A stretch of DNA of 64,000 bases from a virus: positions 124,001 to 188,000 of IMG/VR virus record IMGVR_UViG_3300042889_001503, one strand, 5' to 3'. Positions 41,596 through 64,000 of this stretch are shown piece by piece (positions within the stretch are counted from its first letter, which is position 1; every line of letters starts with the position of its first letter). A program made the position numbers and the translations under genes. The notes beneath the pieces were generated by a model. The model was not told the DNA's origin and searched no databases. It saw only the letters and a list, made by a program, of their open reading frames with translations.

Positions 41596-42192
41596 ATGAT
41601 AGACATAATTAAATATGGTGAATTCAAACCTGTTGGAAAACAAAAAAAGAAACACCAAATAATACTTACACACACATCAAGAAACATCAACGACTATCTT
41701 CAGTCGTTGAAGTTTCGTTTTAACGGGGGTTTTAAAAGAATTCCTAACTACATTATTACCCGGGAGGGTAAAATTATACAATTATTGGGAAACACCGAAC
41801 ACTCGGAATACTTCAAAGACCCCAATATAAATCGTAATTCAATTATCATATCATTAGAAAATTTAGGGTGGTTACAAAAAGAACCACTAACTGACCATTA
41901 CATTAACTGGATTGGGGATATTTATAAGGGTAGCGTGTTTGAAAAAAAGTGGAGAGATTACTTTTTTTGGCAACCATATACTGAAACTCAAGTTGATAAT
42001 CTTGGGTTATTATGTAAGGAATTGTTTGAAAGTGTAAAGATTAAATCACAAATTGTTGAACATAACACAAAAATAAGCGGGATTGAAAAATATTGTGGGA
42101 TTGTAACTAAAAGTAATTTTGGTGTTGATTATACCGATGTTAGTCCGGCATTTAAATTTAATGAACTTTTAAAAAAAATAGAAAATGAATAA
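41596..42192 (+). CDS. N-acetylmuramoyl-L-alanine amidase endolysin
   Basis: This 198-residue protein fits the amidase-2/PGRP fold. IILTHTSRN supplies the first zinc ligand (His26), then YIITREGKIIQLLGNTEHS, IIISLENLGW and YTETQVDNLGLLCKEL follow the usual strand and helix order. IVEHNT carries His156, and DYTDVSPAF carries Asp181 in place of the third ligand. It would cut the amide bond between MurNAc and the peptide stem to free progeny. No signal peptide is present, so a holin or other membrane step is needed. It lies within a run of membrane and spanin-like genes and overlaps the next gene by eight bases. Confidence 0.8.
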   Translation: MIDIIKYGEFKPVGKQKKKHQIILTHTSRNINDYLQSLKFRFNGGFKRIPNYIITREGKIIQLLGNTEHSEYFKDPNINRNSIIISLENLGWLQKEPLTDHYINWIGDIYKGSVFEKKWRDYFFWQPYTETQVDNLGLLCKELFESVKIKSQIVEHNTKISGIEKYCGIVTKSNFGVDYTDVSPAFKFNELLKKIENE

Positions 42193-42802
42193 TTCACACG
42201 ACGAAATTAAACAATTATTAAATGTTTCTCGAAGATTATTGGGGGATAATAATGTAAATGAAGATATCCGTAGACAATATGGGTTATTGACAGAACAGGG
42301 TGTTGATTTGACAGATAATAATGTTACATCAAAAGTTAATGTGACTAAATCTGTTGAGGACAAAATTGATTATGATACCGCTGATACTGAAGAAGAACTT
42401 GAATCTGAGGATGATAAAAAGCAAGCGTATAGAATTTCCGGTGGATTATTGGTTTTACACGGAAAAGAACAAACAGATTTAGAGTTAACGACAGATGAGA
42501 AGATAGCGTTTCAAGAAACAATGGATGAGTTTGTTTCTAACGTTTCTGATATGGTTGATTTTAATAAATTAAACGTATATTCCAATAATGTTGAATGGTC
42601 CGGGAAACTTATTGAATTTGATATTGAATTTTTCTTTTCGATAGGTGAAGAAAATGGTGTTTACATCAATGGAGAAATGTTAAACGCTGATAATGAATTC
42701 ATCGCGTTAATTACTAAATTAAAAACTTATTACGAGAAATTCAAATCAAAATGGGCGGCTGTATTATCATCAAGAAAGAAAACAATTAAAACTGAAGAAT
42801 AA
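42185..42802 (+). CDS. Protein of unknown function with an RRQYGLLTE leader motif
   Basis: This 205-residue protein has an N-terminal helical segment with EDIRRQYGLLTEQG near residues 27-40. The same DIR(R/S)(Q/R)YGL(L/V)(T/N)EQ pattern opens the peptidoglycan-binding-domain protein at 62580. A central acidic linker (DTADTEEELESEDDKKQ) and a soluble alpha/beta domain follow. It overlaps the endolysin gene by eight bases, so expression is probably coupled. It may be a packaged protein, given the LTE leader pattern shared with others. Function unknown. Confidence 0.5.
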   Translation: MNNSHDEIKQLLNVSRRLLGDNNVNEDIRRQYGLLTEQGVDLTDNNVTSKVNVTKSVEDKIDYDTADTEEELESEDDKKQAYRISGGLLVLHGKEQTDLELTTDEKIAFQETMDEFVSNVSDMVDFNKLNVYSNNVEWSGKLIEFDIEFFFSIGEENGVYINGEMLNADNEFIALITKLKTYYEKFKSKWAAVLSSRKKTIKTEE

Positions 42803-43173
42803 TGGAAGATATTAGTAAAAATAAAGATGGTATTATTTTATTGGTAATTATTGCCTGTTTGGTAGGGTGGAATATTTTCACAACCAATACAATAAAAACG
42901 GATGTTAAAGGTTATGGGAAAAAAATTGAAAATATCCAAACAAAAATTGATTCCTCACAAGTTGTTAATAAACAAATTAACACTAAAATTGGTGAGGTAA
43001 AAGAAAATGTAACAACTATCAGTAATGAAATCCATCACATTGATAAAAACATAACAGTAATTAAAAAACAAACAAATGAGAAAGTTAATAACGTTGATAA
43101 TATTCCTGACAGTGAGCTTGAGTTGTTTTTCACAAACAAATACGAACAACCAACCCCAAAATCAGGTAATTAG
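42802..43173 (+). CDS. Inner-membrane spanin-like protein
   Basis: This 123-residue protein has one N-terminal membrane helix (residues about 11-30, ILLVIIACLVGWNIF) followed by a long coiled coil (TKIGEVKENVTTISNEIHHI onward) and a polar end. This is the layout of an inner-membrane spanin. The next gene, a secreted protein with coiled coil, starts inside its 3' end in another frame, with 98 bases shared, as in Rz/Rz1 pairs. It lies near the endolysin. It would help fuse the inner and outer membranes at lysis. Confidence 0.6.
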   Translation: MEDISKNKDGIILLVIIACLVGWNIFTTNTIKTDVKGYGKKIENIQTKIDSSQVVNKQINTKIGEVKENVTTISNEIHHIDKNITVIKKQTNEKVNNVDNIPDSELELFFTNKYEQPTPKSGN

Positions 43174-43516
43174 TGATACAACAAGAGTTAAGTTAAAACC
43201 ATCGACAGCTAGACTAGCGATAAAAGATATTGTTAGAGGTGAAGGTTGTGAATTAGAGTTAAAATTAACTCAAGAAAAAGTTATAAAGTTAGAATCTAGA
43301 GAATCTCAAAAGGATACTATCATTTCTTTATTAGAATCCAAAGATAAGAATAATCAATTTATTATTAGTCAACAAGGATTACAGGTTGATGAATTTAGAA
43401 ATATGACTAATGATTTGAAAAAAGAAATAAAACAAATGAGGGTTAAAACTTTTTTATACAAAGTGGGAACATTTGTTGGTATATTAACAACTTCGTATTT
43501 ATTAATTGTAAGATAA
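43076..43516 (+). CDS. Secreted spanin-like protein with a C-terminal membrane helix
   Basis: This 146-residue protein begins with a signal peptide (RKLITLIIFLTVSLSCFSQT), with Cys17 as a possible lipid attachment site, though the lipobox is weak. A coiled coil follows (CELELKLTQEKVIKLESRES, then DEFRNMTNDLKKEIKQMR), and residues about 124-146 form a C-terminal membrane helix (VGTFVGILTTSYLLIVR). Signal plus C-terminal helix is the layout of a unimolecular spanin. Its start is nested in the 3' end of the preceding spanin-like gene. It should link outer and inner membranes during lysis. Confidence 0.6.
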   Translation: MRKLITLIIFLTVSLSCFSQTNTNNQPQNQVISDTTRVKLKPSTARLAIKDIVRGEGCELELKLTQEKVIKLESRESQKDTIISLLESKDKNNQFIISQQGLQVDEFRNMTNDLKKEIKQMRVKTFLYKVGTFVGILTTSYLLIVR

Positions 43517-43517
43517 T

Positions 43518-43763
43518 ATGTCACTAACTACAACAGATAAAAAGGAGATTGAAACGTTAGTTCGTAAAGAAATTAAAGATTTCTTTGGGAGTAATACTAT
43601 GCAACAATATGAAAATAAACTAATAGATGTTATTTCCAAAGAACTTAAACGAGGTAAACTTGAGGGGGATGTTAAAGATATTACATTAAGAATGTTCCGT
43701 GAGTTCTACCAATTTATGTGGATGAATAGAAGTTATTGGGAACCAAGACTTAAAAACGCATAA
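43518..43763 (+). CDS. Small helical protein of unknown function
   Basis: This 81-residue protein is mostly helical with mixed charge (TDKKEIETLVRKEIKDFFGS, then DITLRMFREFYQFMWMNRSY). The aromatic C-terminal stretch may pack against a partner. It begins one base after the spanin-like gene and ends three bases before the next gene. No family was recognised, but similar short helical proteins sit near head or neck genes in other phages. Confidence 0.5.
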   Translation: MSLTTTDKKEIETLVRKEIKDFFGSNTMQQYENKLIDVISKELKRGKLEGDVKDITLRMFREFYQFMWMNRSYWEPRLKNA

Positions 43764-43766
43764 CAT

Positions 43767-44525
43767 ATGAGACTAAAAGAAAGTATTGGGACTGATTTGA
43801 AAAGCGCTATGTCAACTGAAATGGGAAAATTGTCTACAATTACTAGTGGTGGTATTGATGCGGCGGTTGCAGCTAACGAATTTAAAAATGAAATCCCGGA
43901 AAATAATAATAAAATAATTAAAAAACCAATGAAAAAGGTTGATATCGGCAAATTAGTGGGTAAGAGTAAACTTAAAACACCAACAGGTAAATTAACAATG
44001 GGACTACCAATAATGGGTGAAGATAGTGAAACATCTGAATCTACCGGTTCAGGTTCCGCAGGAGGGTTTGAGGCTCCATTATTCTCTGAAACTAAACAAG
44101 AGATGCAAGAAAAATGTTGGACAGGTTTTGAACAAAAGGGTATGAAAAAGAAAGGTACACGAATGGTCCCTAATTGTGTAAGAGAAGGTGACGAGGGTGA
44201 TATTAAAAAAGTTGAGGCTACTGAATCAACAGGTTCAGGTTCTTCCGGTTCTTATGAAACTACCGCCGCTTGGGCTAAATCTCAAAGTAAAAAAGATTGG
44301 AGAGGAAAGTCTAAGACACAAATACCCGGAGGAAAGTTTGTTCAAGTTAAAAAGAAATGTCAAAAATTTCCATATTGTAATCAAGGAGATATTAAAGCTC
44401 TAAAAATATTTGAAAATGAAAAGGTTAAGAAAGCTATTCAAAATATTAGTGAGAGACATAATATAAGTGAGAATGTTATTAAAACAATTATCGCTTATGA
44501 GTATGAAAATACCTTTTCAAAGTAA
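43767..44525 (+). CDS. Putative virion-internal protein with an N-terminal LKE leader
   Basis: This 252-residue protein begins MRLKESIGTDLKSAMSTEMG, so the (L/I)-x-E pattern occurs at residue 5. Two copies of an ESTGSGSxG segment (near residues 90-98 and 152-160) are followed by GFEAPLFSE or SYETTAAWA. A basic, Cys-containing stretch (KKKGTRMVPNCV, then KKCQKFPYCNQGDIKALK) and a C-terminal helix (NISERHNISENVIKTIIAYE) complete it. Low-complexity, repeated and cleavable-looking segments suggest a head-internal or scaffold-like role. No catalytic motif is visible. Confidence 0.5.
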   Translation: MRLKESIGTDLKSAMSTEMGKLSTITSGGIDAAVAANEFKNEIPENNNKIIKKPMKKVDIGKLVGKSKLKTPTGKLTMGLPIMGEDSETSESTGSGSAGGFEAPLFSETKQEMQEKCWTGFEQKGMKKKGTRMVPNCVREGDEGDIKKVEATESTGSGSSGSYETTAAWAKSQSKKDWRGKSKTQIPGGKFVQVKKKCQKFPYCNQGDIKALKIFENEKVKKAIQNISERHNISENVIKTIIAYEYENTFSK

Positions 44526-44543
44526 TAAAGTTAAAAACTAATA

Positions 44544-44551
44544 TATTTATA
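44544..44551 (+). promoter_or_regulatory. TATTTATA element before the 438-residue gene
   Basis: ATATATTTATAATAAAAACT lies 13 bases before the ATG at 44565. It shares the ATTTATAA-TAAAAAC core with the elements at 50463, 51893 and 62557. Confidence 0.5.
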
Positions 44552-44564
44552 ATAAAAACTAAAA

Positions 44565-45881
44565 ATGAAAAAATTAAATACAACTTATTTAGATAATTTA
44601 GTGTCTAAAATTTTAAAAGAAACTTTAGAAGAAAAGGCGGACACTCTTGTTTCAAAGATTAAAGGTGACGTTTGCGAATGTGGGGGTCAAATGTATGAAG
44701 GTGAATGTAATGAATGTGGTGGTATGTATGAGGATATGAGTGAAGGAATTTACGATGTTGATAACACATTAGATGATGAGTTTGATTATGTTGGAGAAAG
44801 TGAAGACTTTGTTGGTGATGAAGAAAACACTGACGAAGATAGAGAAAAAACTTGTAGATACCATATTGAAAATTTTGGTAAAGAAGACCCTGTTACTAAA
44901 GAAATGTGTCAAGGTATTAATATTACCGAGGCATTAAAAGGTCGTCAAAGAAAATTGGATAAAAACAAAAACAATAAGATTGATGCTGAAGACTTTGAAA
45001 TGTTAAGAAATAAATCAAAAAATAGTAAAGCCATTAAAAGAATTAACAAAATTTCTACAACACACGGAATGGAAGAACAAGAAACGGAAGAAGGTAATGC
45101 TTTCTCAGGAGCGTTATCTAACGCTAAAAAAAGTGGTAAAGATTCTTTTGAAGTAGATGGTAAAAAATATCCGGTTAAAGAATCGTATAGATTGACTGAA
45201 AATGAAATGGTTGGGTTAATTGAGAAAATTGTGTTAGAACAAAAAAATAAAGAAGTTAAAGACCCTGCGGAAAAAAATAACATTAAAGGTTTTGGAGGTT
45301 CTCCAAGAGGATTAGAGGTTTATAAAAAAGCTCACAATGGTTCCGGAAAGGAAAATGATGATAACATTAAAGCGGTTACCAAAAAAATGAAAGATTATCT
45401 TAAAGATGGTTCTAAAGGTGATTATGAAATGAACCCTAAAATGTTTCCTAAAGGAAATGGTGAAATAGAAAAGATGAAGAAAAAGGCTTATACTATGTCA
45501 GATGCGGGTCAAGAATTTATTGATGATTTTATGAGTCCTGGTATGGAAAATTTAGACTATGACCAAATAGAACCGAATGAAGAACAAATAACTAATAACA
45601 TTGAAGGTTCTTCTAAAACAGGTAATAACTCTGAATGGGGTAATGCTGTTGAAACAGATGTTAACAAAAAGATTAATGCCAAACGTAAAGCTAATAAATT
45701 TGCTAAAGTAAGAAATATGGCTTATCAAAAATCTGCTCAACCTATTAAAGATGCGACAGGTGAGGATAGTGGTAAAGGTATTAACCTTAAATTGGAATCT
45801 ACTGAAAAGAAAACAAAACAAATCAACGAAGAGTTTGACAGAATGAAATCGTTAATTAGTTACGACCGAAAAACACAATAA
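44565..45881 (+). CDS. Putative packaged or scaffold-like protein
   Basis: This 438-residue protein starts with a long leader (KLNTTYLDNLVSKILKE, with LKE at residues 17-19). A CECGGQMYEGECNECGG zinc-like knuckle follows near residues 37-53, then acidic spans. Residues 123-150 include LDKNKNNKIDAEDFEML, which looks like an EF-hand loop. An internal RLTENEMVGLIEKIVLEQ repeats the leader pattern near residue 208. The C-terminus ends QINEEFDRMKSLISYDR. Charged, helical, Lys/Glu-rich composition and (L/I)-x-E sites throughout suggest a head-internal or scaffold protein cut by the prohead protease. A terminator with an 11-base-pair stem follows. Confidence 0.5.
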   Translation: MKKLNTTYLDNLVSKILKETLEEKADTLVSKIKGDVCECGGQMYEGECNECGGMYEDMSEGIYDVDNTLDDEFDYVGESEDFVGDEENTDEDREKTCRYHIENFGKEDPVTKEMCQGINITEALKGRQRKLDKNKNNKIDAEDFEMLRNKSKNSKAIKRINKISTTHGMEEQETEEGNAFSGALSNAKKSGKDSFEVDGKKYPVKESYRLTENEMVGLIEKIVLEQKNKEVKDPAEKNNIKGFGGSPRGLEVYKKAHNGSGKENDDNIKAVTKKMKDYLKDGSKGDYEMNPKMFPKGNGEIEKMKKKAYTMSDAGQEFIDDFMSPGMENLDYDQIEPNEEQITNNIEGSSKTGNNSEWGNAVETDVNKKINAKRKANKFAKVRNMAYQKSAQPIKDATGEDSGKGINLKLESTEKKTKQINEEFDRMKSLISYDRKTQ

Positions 45882-45909
45882 TTTACAAACAAATATTTTA
45901 ACTTATAAT

Positions 45910-45943
45910 TTCTCCATAGACGAACTCTATGGAGAATTTTTTT
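45910..45943 (+). terminator. Terminator overlapping the next start codon
   Basis: TTCTCCATAGA (45910-45920) pairs perfectly with TCTATGGAGAA (45926-45936) around CGAAC, then a run of seven T. The ATG of the following gene (45929-45931) lies inside the right arm. Confidence 0.8.
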
Positions 45944-46393: not shown

Positions 46394-46472
46394 AAAGGGT
46401 GATAGTATTTACTATAGGGTAAAAAAAATTACTTTTACTATTATAAAAAATAAATAAATTAAAATTATTCAG

Positions 46473-46837: not shown

Positions 46838-46839
46838 TT

Positions 46840-50484: not shown

Positions 50485-51882
50485 ATGAAGATTATCCAAG
50501 TACTTTCAAATTTAATAACTGAAGACGCTCGTTTTCAGGTATTTTATAATAAATATATACTACCTAGTGGTGATAGAAAAAAAGGATTACTTCCTTTTGA
50601 AATTGTTAAGCAAATAGTTTTTGCTGACCCAACAACAAGAGTTCCGGTTAACTATGACAAAAATGGTGCGTCCGTTGAAGATATGTTAAGTAATCAAATT
50701 AAGGTTGGGAAATATAGTCAATGGATGTTAAATATGTTTATTAAACCACATTTAACTAATGACAATAATGATGTTATAGAAGTTAATACTGACGAATATA
50801 AATCAAAGGCAAATCAATATAGAAAACTTTTTTTAGAAGATTTACATTACTTTACTGAATTACTAACAAAATTTGAAAGATTCAAAGGTAGTTTAGTAGA
50901 TGCGTCTAAGAAAGATATTAATAATGTTAAATCTATTAACGAATTATCTCAATTACAAGTTGAGTATGGTGATACAACAGTTGATTTGGCTGTGTATCGT
51001 GGTAAAAAAGTTAAAAACGAAAAAGGTGCTGACGTTAAAACAAACTTTAATTTTCCCGGTGCGGAAATATTAAAGGTTGGTTCAGAATATACCTTGATTA
51101 GAATTTCTGATAAAGGTGACTTAGGTTCTAAGGCGGCTTCTTATTTTGGAGGTTACGAAGGAGGATTAGCAAGAGGTGAGTCTAATTGGTGTACGGCAGC
51201 AACAGGTTCTGACCACTCACATAGATATAGACAAAAAGGTCCATTATATATTATTATGGCTAATGACGATAAAGGTAAAGTAGGTGAGGTAACAGGATTA
51301 CCTACAGAAAGATATCAACTTCACTTTCCAGCACCGAGTCAATTTAAATCTCGTGACCAATATTCTGCTGAGGGTAATGTCCCAATTGTTGAATTTTTAA
51401 ATGGTAAATGGAGTGAATTTAAAGAAATATTGAAACCTGAATTTGCTAAAGGGTTTGTTACACCAAATAGTGAAAACGTTAACATTAGATATCCATCTGA
51501 TGAAACAGGTAGATTTGTTGCGTTATATGGGTTTGAAGAATTATTTGAGGCGTTACCGGACACGATTAAAAAATTAAATATTGTTAACACTTCAAATGAA
51601 AACATTAGTGTAGCACTTCCTAAGTCAATTGTTAGGTTTAAATCGTTAGTGGCGGTGATGTTTCAGAATATGATTAGTTCAATTCCTGATAACATCTGTG
51701 AGTTGAAGAACTTGACGTTATTGGCTTTCCCTGATAATAAAGAATTAAAATCAGTTCCGGATTGTATACTGTCATTAAAAAACTTTACATTTTTAAATGT
51801 AAACGGATGTCCTAATGTTCAAGTACCAAAAGAATTGGAAAAATATAATGAAGGTAATGGTTATTACCATATGGAAGAATAG
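50485..51882 (+). CDS. LRR protein with a WCTA domain, first of a tandem pair
   Basis: This 465-residue protein opens with a leader MKIIQVLSNLITE (I-T-E ending at residue 13). A helical N-terminal domain to about residue 185 follows. The middle domain contains SKAASYFGGYEGG, then SNWCTAATGS with Trp235 and Cys236, then KGPLYIIMAND and YQLHFPAPSQF. This pattern is found in unstudied phage proteins. Residues about 358-455 are leucine-rich repeats (LPDTIKKLNIVN, IPDNICELKNLTLLA, VPDCILSLKNFTFLN). The next gene is a close paralogue (51918). I infer a packaged protein that may bind a host protein through the LRR region; there is no proof of this. Confidence 0.6.
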   Translation: MKIIQVLSNLITEDARFQVFYNKYILPSGDRKKGLLPFEIVKQIVFADPTTRVPVNYDKNGASVEDMLSNQIKVGKYSQWMLNMFIKPHLTNDNNDVIEVNTDEYKSKANQYRKLFLEDLHYFTELLTKFERFKGSLVDASKKDINNVKSINELSQLQVEYGDTTVDLAVYRGKKVKNEKGADVKTNFNFPGAEILKVGSEYTLIRISDKGDLGSKAASYFGGYEGGLARGESNWCTAATGSDHSHRYRQKGPLYIIMANDDKGKVGEVTGLPTERYQLHFPAPSQFKSRDQYSAEGNVPIVEFLNGKWSEFKEILKPEFAKGFVTPNSENVNIRYPSDETGRFVALYGFEELFEALPDTIKKLNIVNTSNENISVALPKSIVRFKSLVAVMFQNMISSIPDNICELKNLTLLAFPDNKELKSVPDCILSLKNFTFLNVNGCPNVQVPKELEKYNEGNGYYHMEE

Positions 51883-51917: not shown

Positions 51918-53309
51918 ATGAAGATTACAAAAGTATTATCGAACTTAGTTACTGAAGACGCTCGTTTTCAAATTTTATACAAAAAATATGTGTTACCTAG
52001 TGGTGATAGAAAAAAAGGTTTACTACCATTTGAGGTTGTTAAACAAATTGTTTTCGCTGACCCAACAACGAGAGTTCCTGAGAACTACGATAAGGAAGGT
52101 GCGTCTATTGAGGATATGACAAGTGACAAAATTAAAGTTGGTAAATATACCCAATGGTTGTTGAATCTATTTGTTAAACCATACATAACTAGAGAAGGTT
52201 CTAATGAACCAATTGAGGTTGGGACTGATGAGTATAAATCAAAGGCGACTGAATACAGACGACTTTTCTTAGAAGATTTATCTCAATTCACTGAATTATT
52301 AGTGAAATATGATAGATTTAAAGGTAGTTTAGAGGATGCCGCTAAAAAAGACATTAACAATGTTAAATCACTTAATGATTTATCTCACTTGAAAGTTAAA
52401 GTGGGTGATGAAACGGTTGATTTAAATATGTATCGTGGTAAAAAAATTAAGAAAGAAGAAGGTGTTGCTGCTAACACAAACTTTAATATTCCCGGAGCTG
52501 AAATTTTAAAAGTTGGTTCTGAATACACACTAATTAAAATTGCTGACAAAGGTGCTTTAGGTTCTAAAGCGGCATCTTATTTCGGTGGTTATAGTGGAGG
52601 ACTTGATAGAGGTGAAACTAACTGGTGTACGGCAGCAGAAAATTCAAGTTATTCAAACACTTACAGACAACAAGGTCCATTATATATCTTTATTGCTAAT
52701 GATGATAAAGGTAAGGTTGGTCAAGTTACGGGGTTACCATCAGAAAGATATCAATTCCACTTCCCATCTAACCAATTTAAATTTGCTAACCAACACGGTG
52801 GTAACATTCCGGTTGTTGAGTATTTGAATGGTAAATGGTCTGAGTTTAAAGAAATATTCAAACCTGAGTTTGCGGCTGGATTTGTTAAACCAAATTCTGA
52901 TAATGTTGAAATTAAATACCCGGACTCTGCTACAGGTAAGTTCGTGGCTTTATACGGATTTGATGAATTATTTACATCATTACCTATAACAATTAAAAGA
53001 TTGAACATTATTAACACTTCAACAGAAAGTGTTACAATTGATGTTCCTGAGTCAATCAGTAGATTCCAATCATTAACAGCAATATTGTTTGAGAATATGA
53101 TTAGTAAACTTCCAAACTCAATCTGTGAATTAAAGAACTTGGTGTTTATCGCTGTTCCGGGTAACAAAGAATTGAAAACAATTCCGGAATGTATTATGAA
53201 TTTACCAAACCTTACATTTGTGAATGTAAGTAGATGTCCTAATGTTCAAGTGCCAAAAGCGTTAGAACAATACAATACGGGTGAAGGTTTCTACCATATG
53301 GAAGAATAA
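51918..53309 (+). CDS. LRR protein with a WCTA domain, second of a tandem pair
   Basis: This 463-residue protein is similar to the previous one along its full length, with the same leader (MKITKVLSNLVTE), the same middle signature (NWCTAAENSSYSNTYRQQGP, Trp236) and the same LRR end (LPNSICELKNLVFIAVPGNK). Differences concentrate in the middle loop after WCTA and in the LRR faces. That is where contact residues would lie if the two copies had specialised. Both copies are intact, which argues for selection on both. Confidence 0.6.
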   Translation: MKITKVLSNLVTEDARFQILYKKYVLPSGDRKKGLLPFEVVKQIVFADPTTRVPENYDKEGASIEDMTSDKIKVGKYTQWLLNLFVKPYITREGSNEPIEVGTDEYKSKATEYRRLFLEDLSQFTELLVKYDRFKGSLEDAAKKDINNVKSLNDLSHLKVKVGDETVDLNMYRGKKIKKEEGVAANTNFNIPGAEILKVGSEYTLIKIADKGALGSKAASYFGGYSGGLDRGETNWCTAAENSSYSNTYRQQGPLYIFIANDDKGKVGQVTGLPSERYQFHFPSNQFKFANQHGGNIPVVEYLNGKWSEFKEIFKPEFAAGFVKPNSDNVEIKYPDSATGKFVALYGFDELFTSLPITIKRLNIINTSTESVTIDVPESISRFQSLTAILFENMISKLPNSICELKNLVFIAVPGNKELKTIPECIMNLPNLTFVNVSRCPNVQVPKALEQYNTGEGFYHMEE

Positions 53310-56407: not shown

Positions 56408-56839
56408 ATGAAAATAGTAATTAAAGAATCTCAGTATAACTTTTTGGTTGAACAAACTACACCATCAACAACACCGGTTCCATTAAGTAGAGAAGAACAA
56501 ATTAAGTTAAATAAAGAAAAACTTGAACTTAAAAAGAAAGCTGCTGAGGAATTAAAACTTAAAACCATTCAAAAAAAGGATTCAATTGCAAAGGCTTGGG
56601 ATGAAAAAAGAGCTCCTGAATTAAAGAAAGCTGAAGAATTACATAAAAAATATCTTGATGCTTGGTTAGCTGCTAATCCGGGTAAAACGGAAAAAGATTA
56701 TAGTAAGTATTTGGAGAAACAAAAAAAATTACCTGATTCACCATCCTATGAAACTCAAGACCCATCATTCAAATCAACAAAATGTGGTGTTTCAAAAGCG
56801 GCGGCAAAACAATCTAAAAGTGATTGGTCTAAAAAATAA
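56408..56839 (+). CDS. Putative packaged protein, charged and helical
   Basis: This 143-residue protein begins MKIVIKESQYNFLVEQTT, with I-K-E at residues 5-7. The body is a Lys/Glu/Ala-rich helix (KEKLELKKKAAEELKLKTIQ, then AEELHKKYLDAWLAANPGKT) and the end is basic (KAAAKQSKSDWSKK). It has a TATTTATT element close to the start and terminators on both sides, so it forms its own transcription unit. High charge and a cleavable-looking leader recall T4 internal head proteins. Function unknown. Confidence 0.5.
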   Translation: MKIVIKESQYNFLVEQTTPSTTPVPLSREEQIKLNKEKLELKKKAAEELKLKTIQKKDSIAKAWDEKRAPELKKAEELHKKYLDAWLAANPGKTEKDYSKYLEKQKKLPDSPSYETQDPSFKSTKCGVSKAAAKQSKSDWSKK

Positions 56840-56867: not shown

Positions 56868-57686
56868 TTAAAATAATATTAGGTCTTTAATTTTATCTCT
56901 AATTAACCAAGGTTTATTATCAAATGGTTTTGTTATGTCTTCCATAATATCATAATCTTTTATCATATCATTGAATACCAACATATCAAAATCAAACACG
57001 TCCAATGTCATTGAGATAATATCTTTTTTAGGAAACACCGTGTTAGCATTAATGTCTATTTGATTATCGTCGTCCACTTTAATGGACGAATATTTGAAAG
57101 TTAACTTATCTGTTAACAGAACATCTAATAACTGATTAGAGATGTATTCTGAGTAGTATAACTCTTGTCTTCCCATACCTAAACTATATCCGTGTGGAAA
57201 CTCTGATGAGATATTCAACGGAGCATAAGTATAATATTCCAAATTGGTAGTGTCGTCTTCAGAATAATCTAATTCATATTCCAATCTTCTATTATAAAAA
57301 ACTGAATTAAATTTAGGTTGAGGATTTTCAACAATATCTAAAATAAGATTACGGTGATATAACGGTCTTGATGAATGATAAAAATCAAACGTGTATTCTG
57401 TTTTTTTAGTTAAGTCTCGATTATACATAATTAAATCAATAATGTTAACCGTCTCATAACCAAATTTAGTCATTAAAGATTTATAGGTTTCAACAAATGA
57501 CTCTCTTACTTTAATTATATCTAAAATTTTATCTGATGTTGTCATACCGTTAACAACAAAGAATTTACCACAATCAGTAACTTCAATTACGGAGTCATAA
57601 TTAATTGTTTTATTTATCTCTTTTATTAAAAAGTCTGCGAATAGGTTTACTATACCCCGGTTTGAATTTTCATTAATATATTTCAT
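56868..57686 (-). CDS. Protein of unknown function with an INE leader
   Basis: This 272-residue protein begins MKYINENSNRGIVNLFADFL (I-N-E at residues 4-6). An alpha/beta body follows: VIEVTDCGKFFVVNGMTTSD, then VETYKSLMTKFGYETVNIID, then a long Tyr-rich beta portion (GYSLGMGRQELYYSEYISNQ). The acidic C-terminus has VFDFDMLVFNDMIKDYD. The upstream gap holds a TATTTATA element 41 bases from the ATG. I do not recognise a family. A packaged role is possible by leader similarity only. Confidence 0.5.
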   Translation of the reverse strand: MKYINENSNRGIVNLFADFLIKEINKTINYDSVIEVTDCGKFFVVNGMTTSDKILDIIKVRESFVETYKSLMTKFGYETVNIIDLIMYNRDLTKKTEYTFDFYHSSRPLYHRNLILDIVENPQPKFNSVFYNRRLEYELDYSEDDTTNLEYYTYAPLNISSEFPHGYSLGMGRQELYYSEYISNQLLDVLLTDKLTFKYSSIKVDDDNQIDINANTVFPKKDIISMTLDVFDFDMLVFNDMIKDYDIMEDITKPFDNKPWLIRDKIKDLILF

Positions 57687-58030: not shown

Positions 58031-58033
58031 ACT

Positions 58034-59401
58034 ATGGGTAGAAAATTAAGACTTACAGAATCCGAATTATATAAAGTAATCAAAAAAATAGTTGAGCAAA
58101 CTGAGGACGAATATTATAGAATATCTCCTGAGGATTACTTGGATATGATGCAATATGCCAGTTATAATGGTAATGTGTTTAGAAAAATGAAAAAATATGG
58201 TGGAAAACCATTATATATTACAGGTGATTTAGATTTAAGCGGTTTACCGGTTAAAGACATTGGACCAATAGGTTATGTTGACGGTAGATTTGATATTAGC
58301 AGAACTAAAGTATCCGATATTGGTAATTTAAGAAGTAAGTCACATATTTGGGATTCGGGGTCTCCTCGAGAAAGAATTAGAGAAAAACAAGAACTTTTGG
58401 GTAAACAAGCTGAGATGGACTCCAAACGAGAAGATGATGAATGGAATTTTCAAAATCACGATGAAGAGGGATTAAAGGCTATGGCTTTATTAGAATATCT
58501 TGAGGGTCAAGGTAAAGTTAAAGTATTGGATAATGATGAGAAAGAAGAGTTAAAAGAATTGACTCAACAATTGGAAGAACTTAATGCCGATTATGATGAT
58601 GAAGATAGAGACGGTGACCCGGATGAGAATGTGGAAATATTAAATAAAATTGAAGAAGTTCAAGAAAGAATTGATGATTTAACTGGTGACGTTGGTGACA
58701 TCTATGATATGTATCCAACAAATTATACTCATTATGGTTTGACTCAATTTGAAGTTTTGGTGGATGGTTTTAAAGGTGAAGAATATACTGTTGGAACTGA
58801 GGAAGAAATGGATAGAGCGGCTTTAGAGTATTCTAAAAATTATATTGATGATGTTGGAGCTGATGGGTTTAGTAAAAGTTTTATTGAGGATTATTTGGAT
58901 GAAGATGCAATTGTTGACTTTGCAAGAGAAGATTATGAATATCAAGTAAGAGATAGTCCGGAAAGTTATTTTAATGATGATGATTTTGAATTGACTTCAG
59001 AACAAGAAGAAAGAATAGAACAGATTGAATCTCAAATTGAGGATTTGGAACAACAAAAACTTGAATTAGATTCAGATGATGAAAATTATTATGACTACGA
59101 AGAGGATTTAGATAATCAGATTGAATCTCTTCAAGAAGAGTTAGACAATATTGAGGTTGATACTGACCCAACTGAGGATATGATTGATAATAAAGTTGAA
59201 GAATTAGTTAGGTGGGTTAAACGAGACCCTATGCAATATCTTAATGATTACGGTATGGACGTTAAAGAATATATTGATGGAGATGCTTTAGCTCAAGGGT
59301 TAGTTGATTCTGATGGGTGGGGTATTATGAACAGTTATGACGGTACTTATGACAGTATTGATATAGGTGGTGAGTCTTATTACGTAATGAGAGTTAACTA
59401 A
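58034..59401 (+). CDS. Putative packaged protein with an LTE leader
   Basis: This 455-residue protein begins MGRKLRLTESELYKVIKKIV (L-T-E at residues 7-9). A segment with YITGDLDLSGLPVKDIGPIG near residues 56-75 looks like one or two LRR or beta-solenoid turns. It is followed by long acidic coiled coils (residues about 165-205 and 320-375) with many Asp and Glu. The C-terminal domain has VEELVRWVKRDPMQYLNDYG and ends GGESYYVMRVN. High acidity could let it mimic DNA or act as a head filler. It has its own TATTTATT element. No family was recognised. Confidence 0.5.
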   Translation: MGRKLRLTESELYKVIKKIVEQTEDEYYRISPEDYLDMMQYASYNGNVFRKMKKYGGKPLYITGDLDLSGLPVKDIGPIGYVDGRFDISRTKVSDIGNLRSKSHIWDSGSPRERIREKQELLGKQAEMDSKREDDEWNFQNHDEEGLKAMALLEYLEGQGKVKVLDNDEKEELKELTQQLEELNADYDDEDRDGDPDENVEILNKIEEVQERIDDLTGDVGDIYDMYPTNYTHYGLTQFEVLVDGFKGEEYTVGTEEEMDRAALEYSKNYIDDVGADGFSKSFIEDYLDEDAIVDFAREDYEYQVRDSPESYFNDDDFELTSEQEERIEQIESQIEDLEQQKLELDSDDENYYDYEEDLDNQIESLQEELDNIEVDTDPTEDMIDNKVEELVRWVKRDPMQYLNDYGMDVKEYIDGDALAQGLVDSDGWGIMNSYDGTYDSIDIGGESYYVMRVN

Positions 59402-59406
59402 AACTA

Positions 59407-59437
59407 TTCCTTTTTCCAATCTTTTCCTGTATATTTG
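59407..59437 (+). promoter_or_regulatory. Weak Bacteroidetes-type promoter
   Basis: A perfect -7 element TATATTTG (59430-59437) with only TTCC at the -33 place. It would start the transcript of 59450 and the genes that follow it. Confidence 0.35.
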
Positions 59438-59449
59438 AAATAATAGAAT

Positions 59450-60217
59450 ATGGAAATGAGACAGAAAAATAAGAATAAATTTATAATGGACACGGATTGG
59501 TTGTTTGACGGTATTTTAGATGCTGAACAAAAACAATACGTGTTATTAGATTACTTTCAAAAGATGAACAAACATCTTGAGAGAATGGAGGTCTACCCAA
59601 TGTTTATTGAGCTTTCATTACATTTAGGTAATATACAAACTTTACTAACCCAAAACAAAATCTTATATGTTGATAAAAAATTAACATCTACTGATGATGA
59701 ATTGGTATTAAACGATTTAAAGGTTAGGGACATCCCGGTACTTGACGATGAAGAAGTAATTGAATATCAAAAAATATTAAAAAATAGTCAACCACAATTA
59801 CACGACTATTTCAACTTTGCAAAATCAATATGGAGTATTGTTTATGATTCCATAGATATTGTTGTAAAGAAAAATAAAAACAATCTACAAAGTAAATCAG
59901 GTTTTTTTTCATATAAGACACCGGAAATTTTATATGTTTGGCAATATACTACAAGAAAAGTCTATAAAACTAAAAACCAAACAAAAACATCTTTAAAATT
60001 AATTTTTAAAGGTCAACAAGATGATTTGACTATCCCGGAAATTATCTCTACTTTTTCAAAAACATACGAGAAAAACAATGAAGTTGGTTATCCAATCTTT
60101 GAGGTGTTTTGTAGTGATATATTTCCATTAGAGCAGACTTTAGTTCCAATCTTTAAAAGAAAAATATTATCGTATGTCAATCAAAACGTTATTATAACAA
60201 GAAAATTAATATCATAA
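59450..60217 (+). CDS. Protein of unknown function
   Basis: This 255-residue protein starts MEMRQKNKNKFIMDTDWLFD; a second ATG at 59456 is possible. The helical N-terminal half (EQKQYVLLDYFQKMNKHLER, then IELSLHLGNIQTLLTQNKIL) is followed by an alpha/beta end with EVFCSDIFPLEQTLVPIFKR. No membrane segment or catalytic motif was found. It heads a run of small coupled plus-strand genes. Its stop overlaps the next start by one base. Confidence 0.5.
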   Translation: MEMRQKNKNKFIMDTDWLFDGILDAEQKQYVLLDYFQKMNKHLERMEVYPMFIELSLHLGNIQTLLTQNKILYVDKKLTSTDDELVLNDLKVRDIPVLDDEEVIEYQKILKNSQPQLHDYFNFAKSIWSIVYDSIDIVVKKNKNNLQSKSGFFSYKTPEILYVWQYTTRKVYKTKNQTKTSLKLIFKGQQDDLTIPEIISTFSKTYEKNNEVGYPIFEVFCSDIFPLEQTLVPIFKRKILSYVNQNVIITRKLIS

Positions 60218-60399
60218 TGGACAAGAAACAAATTAAAAATTTGATGGATAAGTTAAGACAACCAATCCATATTAGTTACATCTCAAAATACATTCTTAAA
60301 CAGAGTATTGATGAGTCACAAAAACAATTAGATGTATTAATCTCAGAAGGATATATTCAGAAAAGTTCACTAAGTGATGGTTACTATGTGGCTATCTAA
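60217..60399 (+). CDS. Small winged-helix-like protein
   Basis: This 60-residue protein has the pattern of a minimal winged helix: NLMDKLRQPIHISYISKYIL, then QSIDESQKQLDVLISEGYIQ and a short strand pair (KSSLSDGYYVAI). Such domains bind DNA or proteins. It could be a small regulator, but the call rests on pattern only. It overlaps both neighbours by a few bases. Confidence 0.5.
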   Translation: MDKKQIKNLMDKLRQPIHISYISKYILKQSIDESQKQLDVLISEGYIQKSSLSDGYYVAI

Positions 60400-60607
60400 A
60401 AAAACTTATCACATTGGTATTGGGTGTAGTCAAACGGTAATTAGAATATTTAAACAATCAATATTGTTTAGTAAATCACCATCAGGTTGGTCACTTAGGA
60501 TTAATGATGGGGTTGGTATTAATGTTACCACAAAACCACTCTTTTCGGTTAGAAATGGGTATAAAAAATCCATTAAATTGGGTAGATATTATTTAGTAAA
60601 ATTATGA
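60386..60607 (+). CDS. Small beta-rich protein of unknown function
   Basis: This 73-residue protein starts at the third in-frame ATG (MWLSKKTYHIGIGCSQTVIR), because earlier ones at 60374 and 60377 lie deeper in the preceding gene. It has several basic beta strands (ILFSKSPSGWSLRINDGVGI). No family was recognised. Overlaps of 14 bases with the previous gene and 4 bases with the next are compatible with coupled translation. Confidence 0.45.
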   Translation: MWLSKKTYHIGIGCSQTVIRIFKQSILFSKSPSGWSLRINDGVGINVTTKPLFSVRNGYKKSIKLGRYYLVKL

Positions 60608-60990
60608 ACGAATTATTTAAATCAATTGAACCTCTGTTTAAAAATAGGTTCACTATAAATGTTAATGAGGATGTTAACATTCCGGAATATCTGTTCCGTA
60701 AATTCCATATTGAAAATATTGGTGAGGATTTTATTTTTACAACAGAAATTTATCAAACCGTGGAATACACATTTAACCCATCTGATTTGACAAAAATTAC
60801 GGATATCATTCTTAAATTTTTAGGTCCGGTTGGTGATTTAGTTGGAGGGTTACATATGTTAGTTAAAGGTTCCAATATGGAAATCGAGGGTGATTATGGT
60901 GATGGTGAATTATTAATTGTTAAATTTAGATTTGTTGTTAAACCGGTAGATATTAACCTATTATGTCAAGATATTAAGAAAGATGAATAA
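60604..60990 (+). CDS. Protein of unknown function
   Basis: This 128-residue protein has an alpha/beta pattern (KSIEPLFKNRFTINVNEDVN, then DIILKFLGPVGDLVGGLHML, then GDGELLIVKFRFVVKPVDIN). It overlaps the previous gene by four bases and the DUF3310 gene by eight. The Gly-rich loop in the middle is not a P-loop. No known family was recognised. Confidence 0.5.
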   Translation: MNELFKSIEPLFKNRFTINVNEDVNIPEYLFRKFHIENIGEDFIFTTEIYQTVEYTFNPSDLTKITDIILKFLGPVGDLVGGLHMLVKGSNMEIEGDYGDGELLIVKFRFVVKPVDINLLCQDIKKDE

Positions 60991-61216
60991 AGAAATGGTG
61001 AACCACCCGGAACATTACGGAGGTCAGGACAATCCTTATGAGGTTGTAAAAGTTTGTGAAGCTTGGGGTCTTGATAAAGACGCTTACATCTTCAACGTTG
61101 TTAAATATGTTGCAAGAGCGGGTAAGAAAGATACCGATAAAGAACTTCAGGATATGAAGAAAGCGTTGTGGTATTTAAATCGTAAAATTGAAAGATTAGA
61201 AAGTGGAAATCAATAA
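60983..61216 (+). CDS. DUF3310 family protein
   Basis: This 77-residue protein matches the DUF3310 pattern closely: VNHPEHYGGQDNPYEVVKVC, then EAWGLDKDAYIFNVVKYVAR, then AGKKDTDKELQDMKKALWYL and NRKIERLE. The family is widespread in phages, and I cannot state a proven role, although a nucleotide-metabolism link has been suggested by its all-helical, conserved acidic pattern. It overlaps both neighbours. Confidence 0.85.
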   Translation: MNKEMVNHPEHYGGQDNPYEVVKVCEAWGLDKDAYIFNVVKYVARAGKKDTDKELQDMKKALWYLNRKIERLESGNQ

Positions 61217-61370
61217 AGAATATATTGAATCAATAATAGGACTTGAAATTGATGATTTCAAAGTAGAGGAATTAATAGACGACGAAGACATTATAAATGT
61301 TAAAGTTAAACCTAAGGTATTACCCAAATATATTAACATTTCAATAAAAATAGATAAAGTAGATGTATAA
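61203..61370 (+). CDS. Small GTG-start protein of unknown function
   Basis: A 55-residue frame runs from GTG at 61203 to TAA at 61368-61370 (VEINKEYIESIIGLEIDDFK, then ELIDDEDIINVKVKPKVLPK). It overlaps the DUF3310 gene by 14 bases and the following gene by eight, the same spacing style as its neighbours. It fills an otherwise empty 146-base gap, so a real gene is likely. Confidence 0.5.
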   Translation: MEINKEYIESIIGLEIDDFKVEELIDDEDIINVKVKPKVLPKYINISIKIDKVDV

Positions 61371-61668
61371 AGTAACAGTAGATATTGACCAATACGCGGA
61401 AGGTGCGATTTTATTGGATGGTTTAGAGAGTGCAATTATTGGTATTGTTGAGGACTTTGGTTCTCCGGGAAGAAAGATATTATATTCAAAACGAGAGATA
61501 TTAAACATCTTACAAGAAAGAGACTTAATGACTATGGGTGAAGCGGAAGAGTTTTACGATTATAATATATTAGGATTATATGCTGGTGAACAGAACGCAG
61601 TGTTTTTAGACCAAGGTTTAGAACCAATTAAAAATGAAGAAAACGAGTGGGAATACCACGTAAAATAA
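61363..61668 (+). CDS. Protein of unknown function
   Basis: This 101-residue protein has YKVTVDIDQYAEGAILLDGL, a Gly-rich turn (EDFGSPGRKILYSKREI) and an acidic helical end (MTMGEAEEFYDYNILGLYAG). No motif was recognised. It starts inside the preceding small gene and ends four bases before the methyltransferase gene. Confidence 0.5.
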   Translation: MYKVTVDIDQYAEGAILLDGLESAIIGIVEDFGSPGRKILYSKREILNILQERDLMTMGEAEEFYDYNILGLYAGEQNAVFLDQGLEPIKNEENEWEYHVK

Positions 61669-61672
61669 TAAA

Positions 61673-62533
61673 ATGATAGAAACAGGAAAGATAATTAATG
61701 GAGATTGTATTGAGGTAATGAAAACATTTCCTGAAGGTTCAATTGATTTACTAGTAACATCACCACCATATAATGTAAACATTTCGTATGATGTTCATAA
61801 GGATGATTTACCAATGGAGGAATATTACGAGTGGTCAAAGGATTGGTTGAGAGAGGCGTTCCGAGTATTAAAAGATGATGGTCGAATTGCTGTGAATGTC
61901 CCAAATGAATTGAATGTCCAAGAAAGAGGTGGGAGAATATTATTCGTTGCCGAGTTTTGGATGTTAATGAAAGAAGTTGGGTTTAAATTTAGTGGGTTAG
62001 TCGACCTTACGGAAGATAGTCCACATAGAGTTCGACAAACGGCTTGGGGTTCTTGGATGAGTGCGTCAGCACCTTATATCTATAATCCTAAAGAGTGTAT
62101 CATATTGGCTTATAAGAAAAGTAGTAAAAAATTAACTAAAGGAGTTTCACAATGGATGGGAATATCAACTGAGGTTACTACTGAAGATGGTAAGGTTAAA
62201 AACAAAATGATTTATCAGGACGAAGATAAAAAAGAATTTATGAATTTGGTGTTTGGTAGATGGGAATATTTTGCGGATACTAGGTCATTAACTAAAGCCA
62301 CATTCTCAATGGACATTCCATCAAAGGCGATTAAGATATTGTCTTATAAAAATGATATTGTTCTTGACCCTTTTATGGGAAGTGGGACTTCAGCTTTTGC
62401 GGCTGAGTTATTAGATAGACGATGGATTGGAATTGAGTTATCTCCGGATTATACAGAAATTGCAAGGAAAAGAGTTCAATCATTAATTGATGAACGAAAA
62501 CAAACAAAATTAGAATTAAAAGAAGAGGTGTAA
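61673..62533 (+). CDS. Site-specific DNA methyltransferase (N4-cytosine/N6-adenine, beta class order)
   Basis: This 286-residue protein has the catalytic motif IV (LVTSPPYNVNISYD, residues 27-40) near the N-terminus. The AdoMet-binding motif I (VLDPFMGSGTSAFAAELLDR, with Asp232) lies near the C-terminus. This order is that of beta-class amino-methyltransferases. The target base cannot be read from the sequence; a T/SPPY motif fits N4-cytosine or N6-adenine. No endonuclease gene adjoins it. It may protect phage DNA from host restriction. A terminator begins within its last codons. Confidence 0.85.
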   Translation: MIETGKIINGDCIEVMKTFPEGSIDLLVTSPPYNVNISYDVHKDDLPMEEYYEWSKDWLREAFRVLKDDGRIAVNVPNELNVQERGGRILFVAEFWMLMKEVGFKFSGLVDLTEDSPHRVRQTAWGSWMSASAPYIYNPKECIILAYKKSSKKLTKGVSQWMGISTEVTTEDGKVKNKMIYQDEDKKEFMNLVFGRWEYFADTRSLTKATFSMDIPSKAIKILSYKNDIVLDPFMGSGTSAFAAELLDRRWIGIELSPDYTEIARKRVQSLIDERKQTKLELKEEV

Positions 62534-62547
62534 TAACCTCTTTTTTA
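62523..62547 (+). terminator. Terminator after the methyltransferase gene
   Basis: AAGAGGT (62523-62529) pairs perfectly with ACCTCTT (62536-62542) around GTAATA and runs into T residues. The left arm lies in the last coding codons. Confidence 0.8.
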
Positions 62548-62556
62548 TTTTCTGTA

Positions 62557-62564
62557 TATTTATA
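62557..62564 (+). promoter_or_regulatory. TATTTATA element before the peptidoglycan-binding gene
   Basis: GTATATTTATAACTAAAACA then ATTACT-ATG, a gap of 15 bases. It matches the leader of the LRR genes, including the AAAACAATTA stretch. Confidence 0.5.
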
Positions 62565-62579
62565 ACTAAAACAATTACT

Positions 62580-62936
62580 ATGGCAAAAAGATTTATAATT
62601 TCGGAAGATGAAAAAAGAGATATCCGTTCAAGATATGGTTTAGTTAATGAACAAAATGATGGTTTTGAACTTAAAAAAGGGATACAATGTTTCCTTAACA
62701 AAAAAGGTTATAAAGATGATGCGAATCAACCATTAAAAGTTGACGGATTACTAGCGGGTAAAACAGCGGAAGCTTTAAGTAAATATCAATCTAAGATTGG
62801 TGTTACCGCAGATGGTGTTTGGGGTCCTGAAACACAAAATAAAATGTCTGATAAAGACGTTCAACTTTTTAAACAATGTGTATCCGATGAAGGTAGTTTC
62901 ATTGATAAAGGTTTACATATGTTTGGTTTAGATTAA
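62580..62936 (+). CDS. Peptidoglycan-binding-domain protein with an ISE leader
   Basis: This 118-residue protein starts MAKRFIISEDEKRDIRSRYG (I-S-E at residues 7-9). Residues about 30-100 look like a peptidoglycan-binding domain 1 (three-helix): KKGIQCFLNKKGY, then PLKVDGLLAGKTAEALSKYQ, then GVTADGVWGPETQNKMSD. No catalytic domain is attached, so it may direct or anchor another protein at the cell wall. The leader and the TATTTATA element group it with the putative packaged proteins. Its stop overlaps the start of the DHH gene. Confidence 0.65.
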   Translation: MAKRFIISEDEKRDIRSRYGLVNEQNDGFELKKGIQCFLNKKGYKDDANQPLKVDGLLAGKTAEALSKYQSKIGVTADGVWGPETQNKMSDKDVQLFKQCVSDEGSFIDKGLHMFGLD

Positions 62937-64000
62937 TGAAAAAACTTATAAAAGAAAGTGGATTAAGAGACATTAACGCTCTTGCTAAAAGATACCCTAA
63001 AGCTGAAATATATTTTCACCAAGATTTAGATGGTGTAACTACGGCTATTGCGATGAAAGAATATCTTAAGAATAATGGTATTGATGTAATAGATTCTCAT
63101 ATCATCCAATATGGTGATAAAGAGTTCGCTGTAAAGAAGAATGACGCTAAAGGGGACGTGATGCCTGTTTTAGTTGATTTTGCTCACGGAAAACCAATGT
63201 TTGTGATTCACACAGACCACCACGATAGACAAGCCGGAGCTGAAGACACTAAATCAACATCATTTAGAAGTTCCCGTTCAAATGTTGAGACAATCTCTCA
63301 GGTAGTTTCTCCAAAAGAATTATTCCCATCCTCAGACATATTACTTATTTCTACTGTAGATTCTGCAAACTATGCGGTTAACGATATTTCAGTGGACCAA
63401 GTAATCTCTTACTTATTCAGATTAGATAAAGAGAAATCGTTAGAAAAGAATAAAATGTTAATGGGGTTAGTTGTTAACAAACTATTATTAGCGTTTAAAA
63501 ACAAACCAGGGTTCTTAGAGACATTGGTTATGGAATGTTCTCCATCGTTATTAAATATACTTCACACCATTAAACGAATAATGGTTGAGAAAGGATACGC
63601 GAAACCGGACCAACTTGAAAAGAATAAAGAAGACTATGTCACATCAATGCAAACTAACCCTAATGTTAAAGTATTAGGTAATGTTATTGTTCAATATGGT
63701 GGGGGTTCAATGTTTAAGCCAGGTTCTTACGATAGATACACACCATTCAAAAATAATCCTGAGGCTGACTTTATTGTTATTGCTTGGCCGTTAGGGTTAG
63801 TTCAAGCGTCTTGTAACCCATTCAAAGGAGAACGTCAATTAAAAGGTGTGAATTTAGGTGAGATTGCCCAAGAGGTATTATCAAAATGGGAGGACCAATT
63901 AAAACAAAGAGAGATAACCCTTTCAACAATTAAATGGATTTCAGAATCATCAAAAGATTTTAATTCGGAATCAACAGGATTTACCTTTAAAGATTTTGTT
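62936..64000 (+). CDS. DHH-family phosphoesterase (partial, runs off the window)
   Basis: The frame from ATG at 62936 stays open to the last base, with 355 codons visible. The first residues MKKLIKESGLRDINALAKRY carry I-K-E at 5-7. DHH-family motifs follow in order: YFHQDLDGVTTAIAM (Asp30, Asp32), VLVDFAHGKPMF (Asp81), and IHTDHHDRQAG (Asp94, His95, His96). Further motifs and the C-terminal DHHA1 part are less clear: IAWPLGLVQASCNPF may belong to the second domain. DHH proteins cut nucleic acids (RecJ) or small oligonucleotides. It starts in the stop of the peptidoglycan-binding gene. A packaged or injected nuclease is an open possibility. Confidence 0.75.
   Translation, partial: MKKLIKESGLRDINALAKRYPKAEIYFHQDLDGVTTAIAMKEYLKNNGIDVIDSHIIQYGDKEFAVKKNDAKGDVMPVLVDFAHGKPMFVIHTDHHDRQAGAEDTKSTSFRSSRSNVETISQVVSPKELFPSSDILLISTVDSANYAVNDISVDQVISYLFRLDKEKSLEKNKMLMGLVVNKLLLAFKNKPGFLETLVMECSPSLLNILHTIKRIMVEKGYAKPDQLEKNKEDYVTSMQTNPNVKVLGNVIVQYGGGSMFKPGSYDRYTPFKNNPEADFIVIAWPLGLVQASCNPFKGERQLKGVNLGEIAQEVLSKWEDQLKQREITLSTIKWISESSKDFNSESTGFTFKDFV

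Follow-up and report, generated by a model that had tools for sequence, protein, structure and literature searches.

Many proteins of a giant virus, whose host probably belongs to the Bacteroidetes, begin with one of several families of N-terminal leader, about 7-37 residues long, which are reused on unrelated bodies. The virus is represented by IMG/VR record IMGVR_UViG_3300042889_001503 (272,437 bases in total, ~272 kb), and the 64,000-nucleotide stretch analyzed here, hereafter the window, comprises positions 124,001-188,000 of that record. The leaders are probably removable capsid-targeting sequences, similar in logic to those of phage T4 but different in sequence and far more numerous. A sequence-only reading of the window had proposed T4-like targeting peptides cut after Glu, from an (L/I/V)-x-E motif near the start of nine proteins. 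The bare motif does not survive as the mark of a leader, and the signal lies in the longer segments beneath it; capsid targeting itself is favored by the prohead protease of this virus, its capsid site, the reuse and exchange of the leaders and the virion proteins of phage S-CREM2.

About 198 kb of the record was read. Patterns written for the individual leader classes match 34 of 217 open reading frames (ORFs; those starting with ATG, less ORF 62936, truncated where the window stops), compared with 1/140 interior methionines and none in 20 shuffles, the patterns being post hoc; the leaders of window ORFs 42185 and 44565 escape them. All but one of the 34 genes lie at 174-246 kb of the record, with densities of 15/39 ORFs at 206-226 kb and 10/34 at 226-246 kb, and of 1/31 at 14-50 kb. 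No class-pattern leader was found among the 17 ORFs of the replication/transcription module (window 30.9-41.6 kb) or the 37 ORFs of three tail stretches. The replication/transcription control is a mixed one, since the 10 of its 17 genes that were scanned comprise a primase, a calcineurin-like phosphoesterase, a sub-threshold SbcC domain, a sigma factor, an amidase, a domain of unknown function and four genes without a match; DNA polymerase A (PF00476), sought as a replication control, gave no match.

Models trained on relatives only place four N-termini of this genome at ≥8 bits, a score reached by no interior and no shuffled segment (126 ORFs). When 209 of its ORFs are compared all-against-all, 51 N-terminal links join dissimilar bodies, a figure to which a tail-protein module and a few chance links contribute, vs. 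1-3 in eight shuffles. The relatives are 80 loci fetched by the capsid gene, which together with this genome give 263 non-redundant proteins. Across this set, Glu occurs two residues after Leu, Ile or Val at 1.51-1.81 times expectation within residues 5-31 and at 1.04-1.21 times further in; within residues 5-31 other spacings stand at 0.71-1.15 times and Asp at 0.90-0.92 times. The x-E enrichment near the N-terminus is real and specific to its spacing.

Selection acts on the leader peptide, not the RNA. Across 19 class D genes Ile5 is invariant (19/19) and encoded by three codons (ATT 8, ATA 8, ATC 3), and Glu7 is kept in 18/19 by two (GAA 12, GAG 6), at a usage near that of the genome; the pattern that selected these genes left position 5 open to I, L, V or S and position 7 to E or K. 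Ten homologs of the leucine-rich repeat (LRR) protein (39-87% identity to the first) differ in their leaders, yet Glu13, directly before the conserved body, is present in 10/10. [LIV]-x-E occupies the Glu13 register in nine of them, the remaining one reading LIKEE. Residues 1-12 of the predicted structure of 50485 have a pLDDT (predicted local distance difference test) below 50.

One body can bear leaders of different families. The peptidoglycan-binding body of 62580, here under a class B leader, recurs in relatives under a class A leader, in 12 proteins (28-57% identity, E 7e-37 to 0.002) that make up the entire largest class A body cluster, and leaders are therefore exchangeable. Reuse of one family on many bodies is equally plain. 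A search of IMG/VR DNA with the pattern I(K/R)LTESDLxxI(V/I)K returned at least 89 matches at no fewer than 80 loci. Among the matches listed, the nearest in-frame ATG is within 15 codons in 88/89 and within five in 83, and 82 are still within 15 codons if the furthest in-frame ATG is taken instead; the leader ends on Glu in 71/88, followed by Gln in 37, neither residue being part of the pattern. The 84 bodies among these matches fall into 58 clusters, 46 of them singletons (BLASTP, 0.01). Leader proteins are also found in 46 of the relatives' 80 capsid-fetched loci, on which the leader models were themselves trained, and a tblastn search of a phage collection with 23- and 31-residue leaders gave no match at E ≤ 10.

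The prohead protease that the sequence-only reading called for is present: the record encodes a Peptidase_S77 protein (PF03420) at E 5.4e-25, over the cut-off. The gp23-like capsid protein has I-N-E↓A aligned to L-T-E↓A of T4 gp23 (the arrow marks the cleavage position), with V-S-E↓A in Flavobacterium phage immuto and I-S-E↓A in Microcystis phage Mel-JY01, and cleavage at I-N-E↓A is predicted. These two phages and an uncultured 484 kb phage are among the closest capsid-protein relatives listed. Scaffold-like proteins have [LI]-x-E at one register in 33/39, and in 28 the next residue is Gln, an ending that many leaders share. The leaders may imitate a protease-cut segment of the scaffold (...LVKESLTE↓Q in the scaffold vs. 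...IVKRVINE↓Q in a leader), and a scaffold-leader profile likeness, which at 3.9 bits ranks sixth among 1,655 interior tiles, is no more than suggestive of this. The head genes lie at 25-33 kb of the record, where the portal-like and gp22-like scaffold genes beside those for capsid and protease were named by position and likeness and not by family search. Protease and capsid protein also go together in another seven records: three have both and the other four neither, two of the three having been retrieved through that capsid protein.

In T4 the leader is described as carrying its protein into the prohead core, where gp21 then cuts after L/I-x-E, with propeptides of 7-65 residues (PMC9026906, PMC3012670). 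By the same logic, a leader in this phage would bind the scaffold core while the prohead assembles, and its protein would thereby be enclosed. The S77 protease would then cut after the Glu of the leader's (L/I/V)-x-E site, freeing the mature protein within the head for ejection along with the DNA. The resemblance to T4 IPI-IPIII and Alt extends to a short conserved N-terminal leader, diverse bodies and an L/I-x-E end (V-x-E in some members here), as well as to the homologous S77 protease and capsid cleavage position; unlike T4, this phage has dozens of candidate cargos, whose packaging is predicted from sequence. Blind comparison of N-termini across 54 kb of the T4 genome (65 ORFs) returned IPII/IPIII (MKTYQEFIAE; score 55, bodies 22), the only pair at ≥45 with dissimilar bodies.

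Independent support for the leader reading comes from the T4-like cyanophage S-CREM2, in which a prohead protease is annotated and unrelated proteins have a leader in common. Its leader, unlike those here, is of T4 type, and its proteins were detected in virions (PMC10665884, Table 3), whose proteome by mass spectrometry is given as 52 proteins. Leaders ending FLxE or FMAE are found on its S-adenosylmethionine hydrolase, APH-like kinase, NMNAT (nicotinamide mononucleotide adenylyltransferase), Cas9-like nuclease and hypothetical gp13. MKx(F/L/Y)xxF(L/I/M)xE stands at the start of 4/217 genes (gp6, gp13, gp14, and gp154), all among the 52 virion proteins, although gp13 is reported from one peptide and gp154 from three (PMC10665884). 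F..(F/W)(hydrophobic).E within the first 30 residues picks out 7 of 186 proteins of at least 60 residues, five of them in the virion list (p 0.019; compared with non-structural virion proteins, 5 vs. 2, p 0.0018), and a looser pattern matches 13, of which seven are virion proteins (p 0.038). Many other virion proteins are without a leader, which for tail parts is expected, and so are the two endolysins. The S-CREM2 authors weighed encapsulation and could not exclude carry-over, and neither “capsid targeting” nor “leader” occurs in their text (PMC10665884). Elsewhere, NMNAT keeps the leader in S-SM2 (MKSFFQFLSE) and in both P-SSM7 and S-RIM2 (MKKFSAFLTE); it reads SKFFSEA in S-SCSM2R (first four codons outside the stretch), starts with MKKFSEIIEA in Melnitz-1 and is without a leader in RaK2. 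An NMNAT-type protein is reported in S-SM1 and S-SCSM1 virions (PMC3037559, PMC9602691). A search for NMNAT in the phage studied here found no match to PF01467.

Other systems share parts of this arrangement. An N-terminal segment of 30 residues of DarB is described as sufficient for head loading in P1; this signal is distinct from the S77/LxE system considered here, and no consensus among Dar N-termini is reported in that study (PMC9024508). SPN3US and phiKZ are giant phages described as cutting head proteins after Glu (PMC9026906) and packaging many ejected proteins (PMC10052503); their protease and motif have diverged, and the descriptions consulted contain no single short leader on dozens of cargos. 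In the cultured phage immuto, blind comparison yields four MENFDLKKFLVEN-type, two MKKQILSEQFxRMQ-type and three MKKSxL-type proteins, and there it also catches signal peptides. No common leader of such kind was seen in 50 of the 103 kb of crAss001, and a published common N-terminal motif of RaK2 was rejected as the same leader, being a tail-spike motif of different form. No paper matched the leader strings themselves, and literature on capsid targeting, including T4, P1 and SPN3US, contained nothing recognized as these leaders, in a coverage that left out most subscription journals and bioRxiv; with coverage so limited, they are not proven unpublished.

Several observations weigh against capsid targeting. 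The rule by which the sequence-only reading picked out leaders falls by the refutation test which that reading set, because bare (L/I/V)-x-E is about as frequent in the replication/transcription module (6/17 ORFs) as in the region of the nine proteins (12/28), with 38/97 at 188-246 kb and 8/36 among tail/adhesin ORFs. In this genome the motif occurs at residues 2-20 of 43/126 ORFs vs. residues 41-59 of 36/126, and in S-CREM2 it fails to separate virion proteins (40 matches, 15 in the virion list, p 0.095); bare counts are too common in both genomes and were dropped as evidence. Two of the seven S-CREM2 proteins with the F..(F/W) pattern are non-virion, and the S-CREM2 patterns, like the class patterns of this genome, were set once the sequences had been seen. 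The leader families here are not akin to MKTYQEFIAE and often have two LxE sites with Gln after the last. Several have Val at P3 and Gln at P1', vs. L/I-x-E in T4 and Ala in the phage's own capsid site, and class D leaders have only a single fixed site. PF03420 is found in 13/18 leader-bearing contigs of at least 96 kb (all such contigs among the matches listed), which speaks for the protease link to a degree that depends on the base rate in large contigs, but five gave no match. Of the other five, four also lack a capsid protein and one has a weak 45-residue capsid match, and two carry the tail-sheath type of this phage. Some are therefore fragments; the other three show no such sign. Mel-JY01 has the protease, but the 50 kb examined of its 190 kb show no common leader. 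The literature searched yielded no virion proteome, either for the phage studied here or for a relative from Bacteroidetes, immuto included.

An alternative, which we consider unlikely, is that the leaders address proteins to another place in the cell, such as a host complex, a replication site or the membrane, so that they would be early takeover proteins with a docking helix that are never packaged. The clustering of leader genes in one stretch apart from the head genes fits this view, as do the five leader contigs without a protease match. It leaves aside the feature that the leaders have in common, which is the protease site of the head proteins of the same phage, as well as their presence in over half of the capsid-fetched loci (subject to the training overlap mentioned above) and the placing of same-form leaders on virion proteins in S-CREM2. 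A membrane address in particular is disfavored because few spans are predicted in leader proteins: 1/33, vs. 17/99 in neighbors (p 0.043), and 2/57 in class A cargos. This test, which is marginal and uses hydropathy only, did not mark the cargos as spanning or bound for the membrane. The hydrophobic moment of the class A leader is above the shuffle mean, yet 20% of shuffles reach the same value.

That the bodies descend from one or a few old gene families, diverged past recognition with the N-terminus retained, is very unlikely. The paralogs 50485/51918 and the weak body similarity kept by some array neighbors (e.g., L093:18070/18618, body score 68) are what such descent would leave, but it has to accommodate at least 58 body clusters under one leader family, LysM, peptidoglycan-binding and zinc-ribbon bodies among them, and one body with two different leader families. 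A leader so strictly kept would in any case need a function, and this is compatible with targeting. Hardly tenable is an effect at the RNA level, in which A-rich 5' coding ends that favor translation yield Lys, Ile, Thr and Glu by composition: AAA, ATA, ACA and GAA codons are indeed common in the genome, but Ile5 and Glu7 vary synonymously, the enrichment is confined to the x-E spacing, and the leader-end Glu and Gln are kept although outside the search pattern. Chance, given that short LxE motifs are common in proteins rich in Lys, Glu, Ile and Leu, has equally little to commend it. The bare-motif counts would let the earlier list be accidental, but for extended leaders chance is refuted by the class-pattern counts, the held-out models trained on relatives and the IMG/VR scan; it is still possible for 43767 and 56868-57686(-).

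The leaders in the window and the classes in the genome are listed in Table 1. All nine N-termini quoted by the sequence-only reading are present, the ninth (62936) reading MKKLIKESG... and running past the window end. Five of its leaders (50485, 51918, 56408, 58034, and 62580) are supported by leader family or divergent homologs, those of 62936 and 44565 are plausible, and those of 43767 and 56868-57686(-) are weak; ORF 42185 and most of the leader system, which lies beyond the window, were absent from its list. Its view that the bodies are unrelated holds, as BLASTP at E ≤ 0.1 among the nine and 42185 found just two matches, the paralogs 50485/51918 (70%) and a 25-residue match of 62580 to 42185 in the leader only (E 0.013); at this sensitivity no other similarity links the bodies.

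Table 1. Leaders and leader candidates in the window, and leader classes matched in the read part of the record. Arrows mark putative cleavage positions.
Leader or class	Position in window	Strand	Gene or number of ORFs
Leader ending ...VNEDIRRQYGLLTE then Q	42185..42295	+	ORF 42185-42802, same family as 62580
Weak candidate MRLKE, bare motif only	43767..43781	+	ORF 43767-44525
Plausible leader MKKLNTTYLDNLVSKILKE	44565..44621	+	ORF 44565-45881
Leader MKIIQVLSNLITE	50485..50523	+	LRR-tailed protein 50485-51882
Leader MKITKVLSNLVTE	51918..51956	+	Paralog 51918-53309, same basis as 50485
Leader MKIVIKE↓SQYNFLVE↓Q	56408..56452	+	ORF 56408-56839, class D
Weak candidate MKYINE	57669..57686	-	ORF 56868-57686(-)
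Leader MGRKLRLTE↓SELYKVIKKIVE↓Q	58034..58096	+	ORF 58034-59401, class A
Leader MAKRFIISE↓DEKRDIRSRYGLVNE↓Q	62580..62651	+	Peptidoglycan-binding protein 62580-62936, class B
Short leader candidate MKKLIKE↓SG	62936..62956	+	DHH-like protein, runs off window
Class D, MK(I/V/L)(I/L/V)I(T/K)E			17 ORFs
Class A, K.(L)(T/S)ES(D/E)L..IIKK(V/I)..EQ			4 ORFs
Class A', (L)IKKILREE			5 ORFs
Class F, MNLNENIHRIHQMMGIINEN			4 ORFs
Class G, MKI..VLSNLITED			3 ORFs
Class B, IISEDEK..I...YGLVNEQ			1 ORF

The N-terminus of 42185 scores 48 against that of 62580, with unrelated bodies (34); N-terminal pairs at ≥45 average 0.2 in shuffles and number 7 of 5,151 for interior segments without the body filter. The 56408 N-terminus scores 47 and 52 with those of L004:14228 and L093:13396, both with unrelated bodies, and its leader belongs to the 19 of class D whose codons vary synonymously. 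The leader of 58034 scores 19.9 bits with the relatives-only class A model and 15.3 bits with that from IMG/VR, and the 62580 leader 17.2 bits with the class B model. That of 44565 reaches 6.0 bits with the relatives-only class A model, where the best interior decoy has 7.5 bits; its body contains another segment, YRLTENEMVGLIEKIVLEQ. In 62936, residues 5-7 are [LIVM]-x-E in 79/80 best homologs with x variable (K, N, T, and others), these homologs being 77-100% identical and conserved beyond the motif as well. The weak candidates score 1.8 bits in leader models, in a match that is not N-terminal (43767), and 4.6 bits to class B, near decoy level (MKYINE). Residues about 93-180 of 43767-44525 hold a CWTGFEQKGMKKKGTRMVPNCV segment, in a part of the protein with matches to seven PHROG families whose function is unknown.

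The cargo set envisaged by the sequence-only reading is recognizable in its LRR pair and peptidoglycan binder (62580; PF01471 at 37.1 bits, cut-off 23), while its possible nuclease, 62936, has a Pfam DHH match of 24.3 bits that lies below the curated cut-off of 28.1. Most cargos have no Pfam match: six families are recognized across 57 class A representatives and two across 38 proteins of this genome, with LysM and zinc-ribbon bodies in relatives, and cell-wall binding is the commonest theme among recognized bodies. A fold search with the LRR protein gave four matches at E ≤ 0.001, each to a protein that contains LRRs, and no identity for its N-terminal domain. A protein 100% identical to 50485 across 465 residues is encoded by three IMG/VR contigs from other samples (L102, L105, and L106), which represent either the same phage sampled in other metagenomes or its close relatives. 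The densest candidate cargo islands in the part read are two runs, L093:8109-19492 (record 214,109-225,492) and L096:8059-10387 (record 234,059-236,387), made up of small genes whose function is unknown and many of which have a class A, A', D or F leader.

Neighboring genes provide further observations. A short ORF at window 25888-26070, amid tail genes, begins with MKLIDTISNVVTEAK, like the class G leader of 50485. Tail/adhesin-like proteins at window 21560-30825 (minus strand) and L094:12774-15416, whose lengths otherwise differ, have in common an N-terminal module of ~30 residues, (P)Y(N/D)(V/I)Y(V/L)CD..., which is probably a virion anchor not related to the leaders. The large protein encoded at L002:7884-11006 has a C-terminus, ...VYNVDVNNSNLYFANNVLTHNK, that we take to resemble the end of a Hint/intein-type self-processing domain. 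By eye, a bS21-like gene lies within the head-gene cluster (L002:13693-13887, minus strand); the same arrangement is described for freshwater phages whose predicted hosts are Bacteroidetes (Chen et al., 2022, PMC9723584).

If removable leaders of this kind do mark head cargo, candidates for injected proteins could be listed from nothing more than the genome sequences of uncultured phages, about 34 of them in the portion of this record covered here. Giant-phage genes are mostly of unknown function. Such a rule would offer a reason for the unexpected enzymes in cyanophage virions, and the leaders are candidate short tags to load chosen proteins into phage heads in the laboratory. It is conceivable, though we hold this only tentatively, that giant T4-type phages of Bacteroidetes possess a general cargo system in which a few interchangeable leaders would bring dozens of effectors into each virion. 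The leader families might then represent different addresses, in place or timing within the prohead, and delivery by the virion might be gained, swapped or lost through a leader of ~20 residues.

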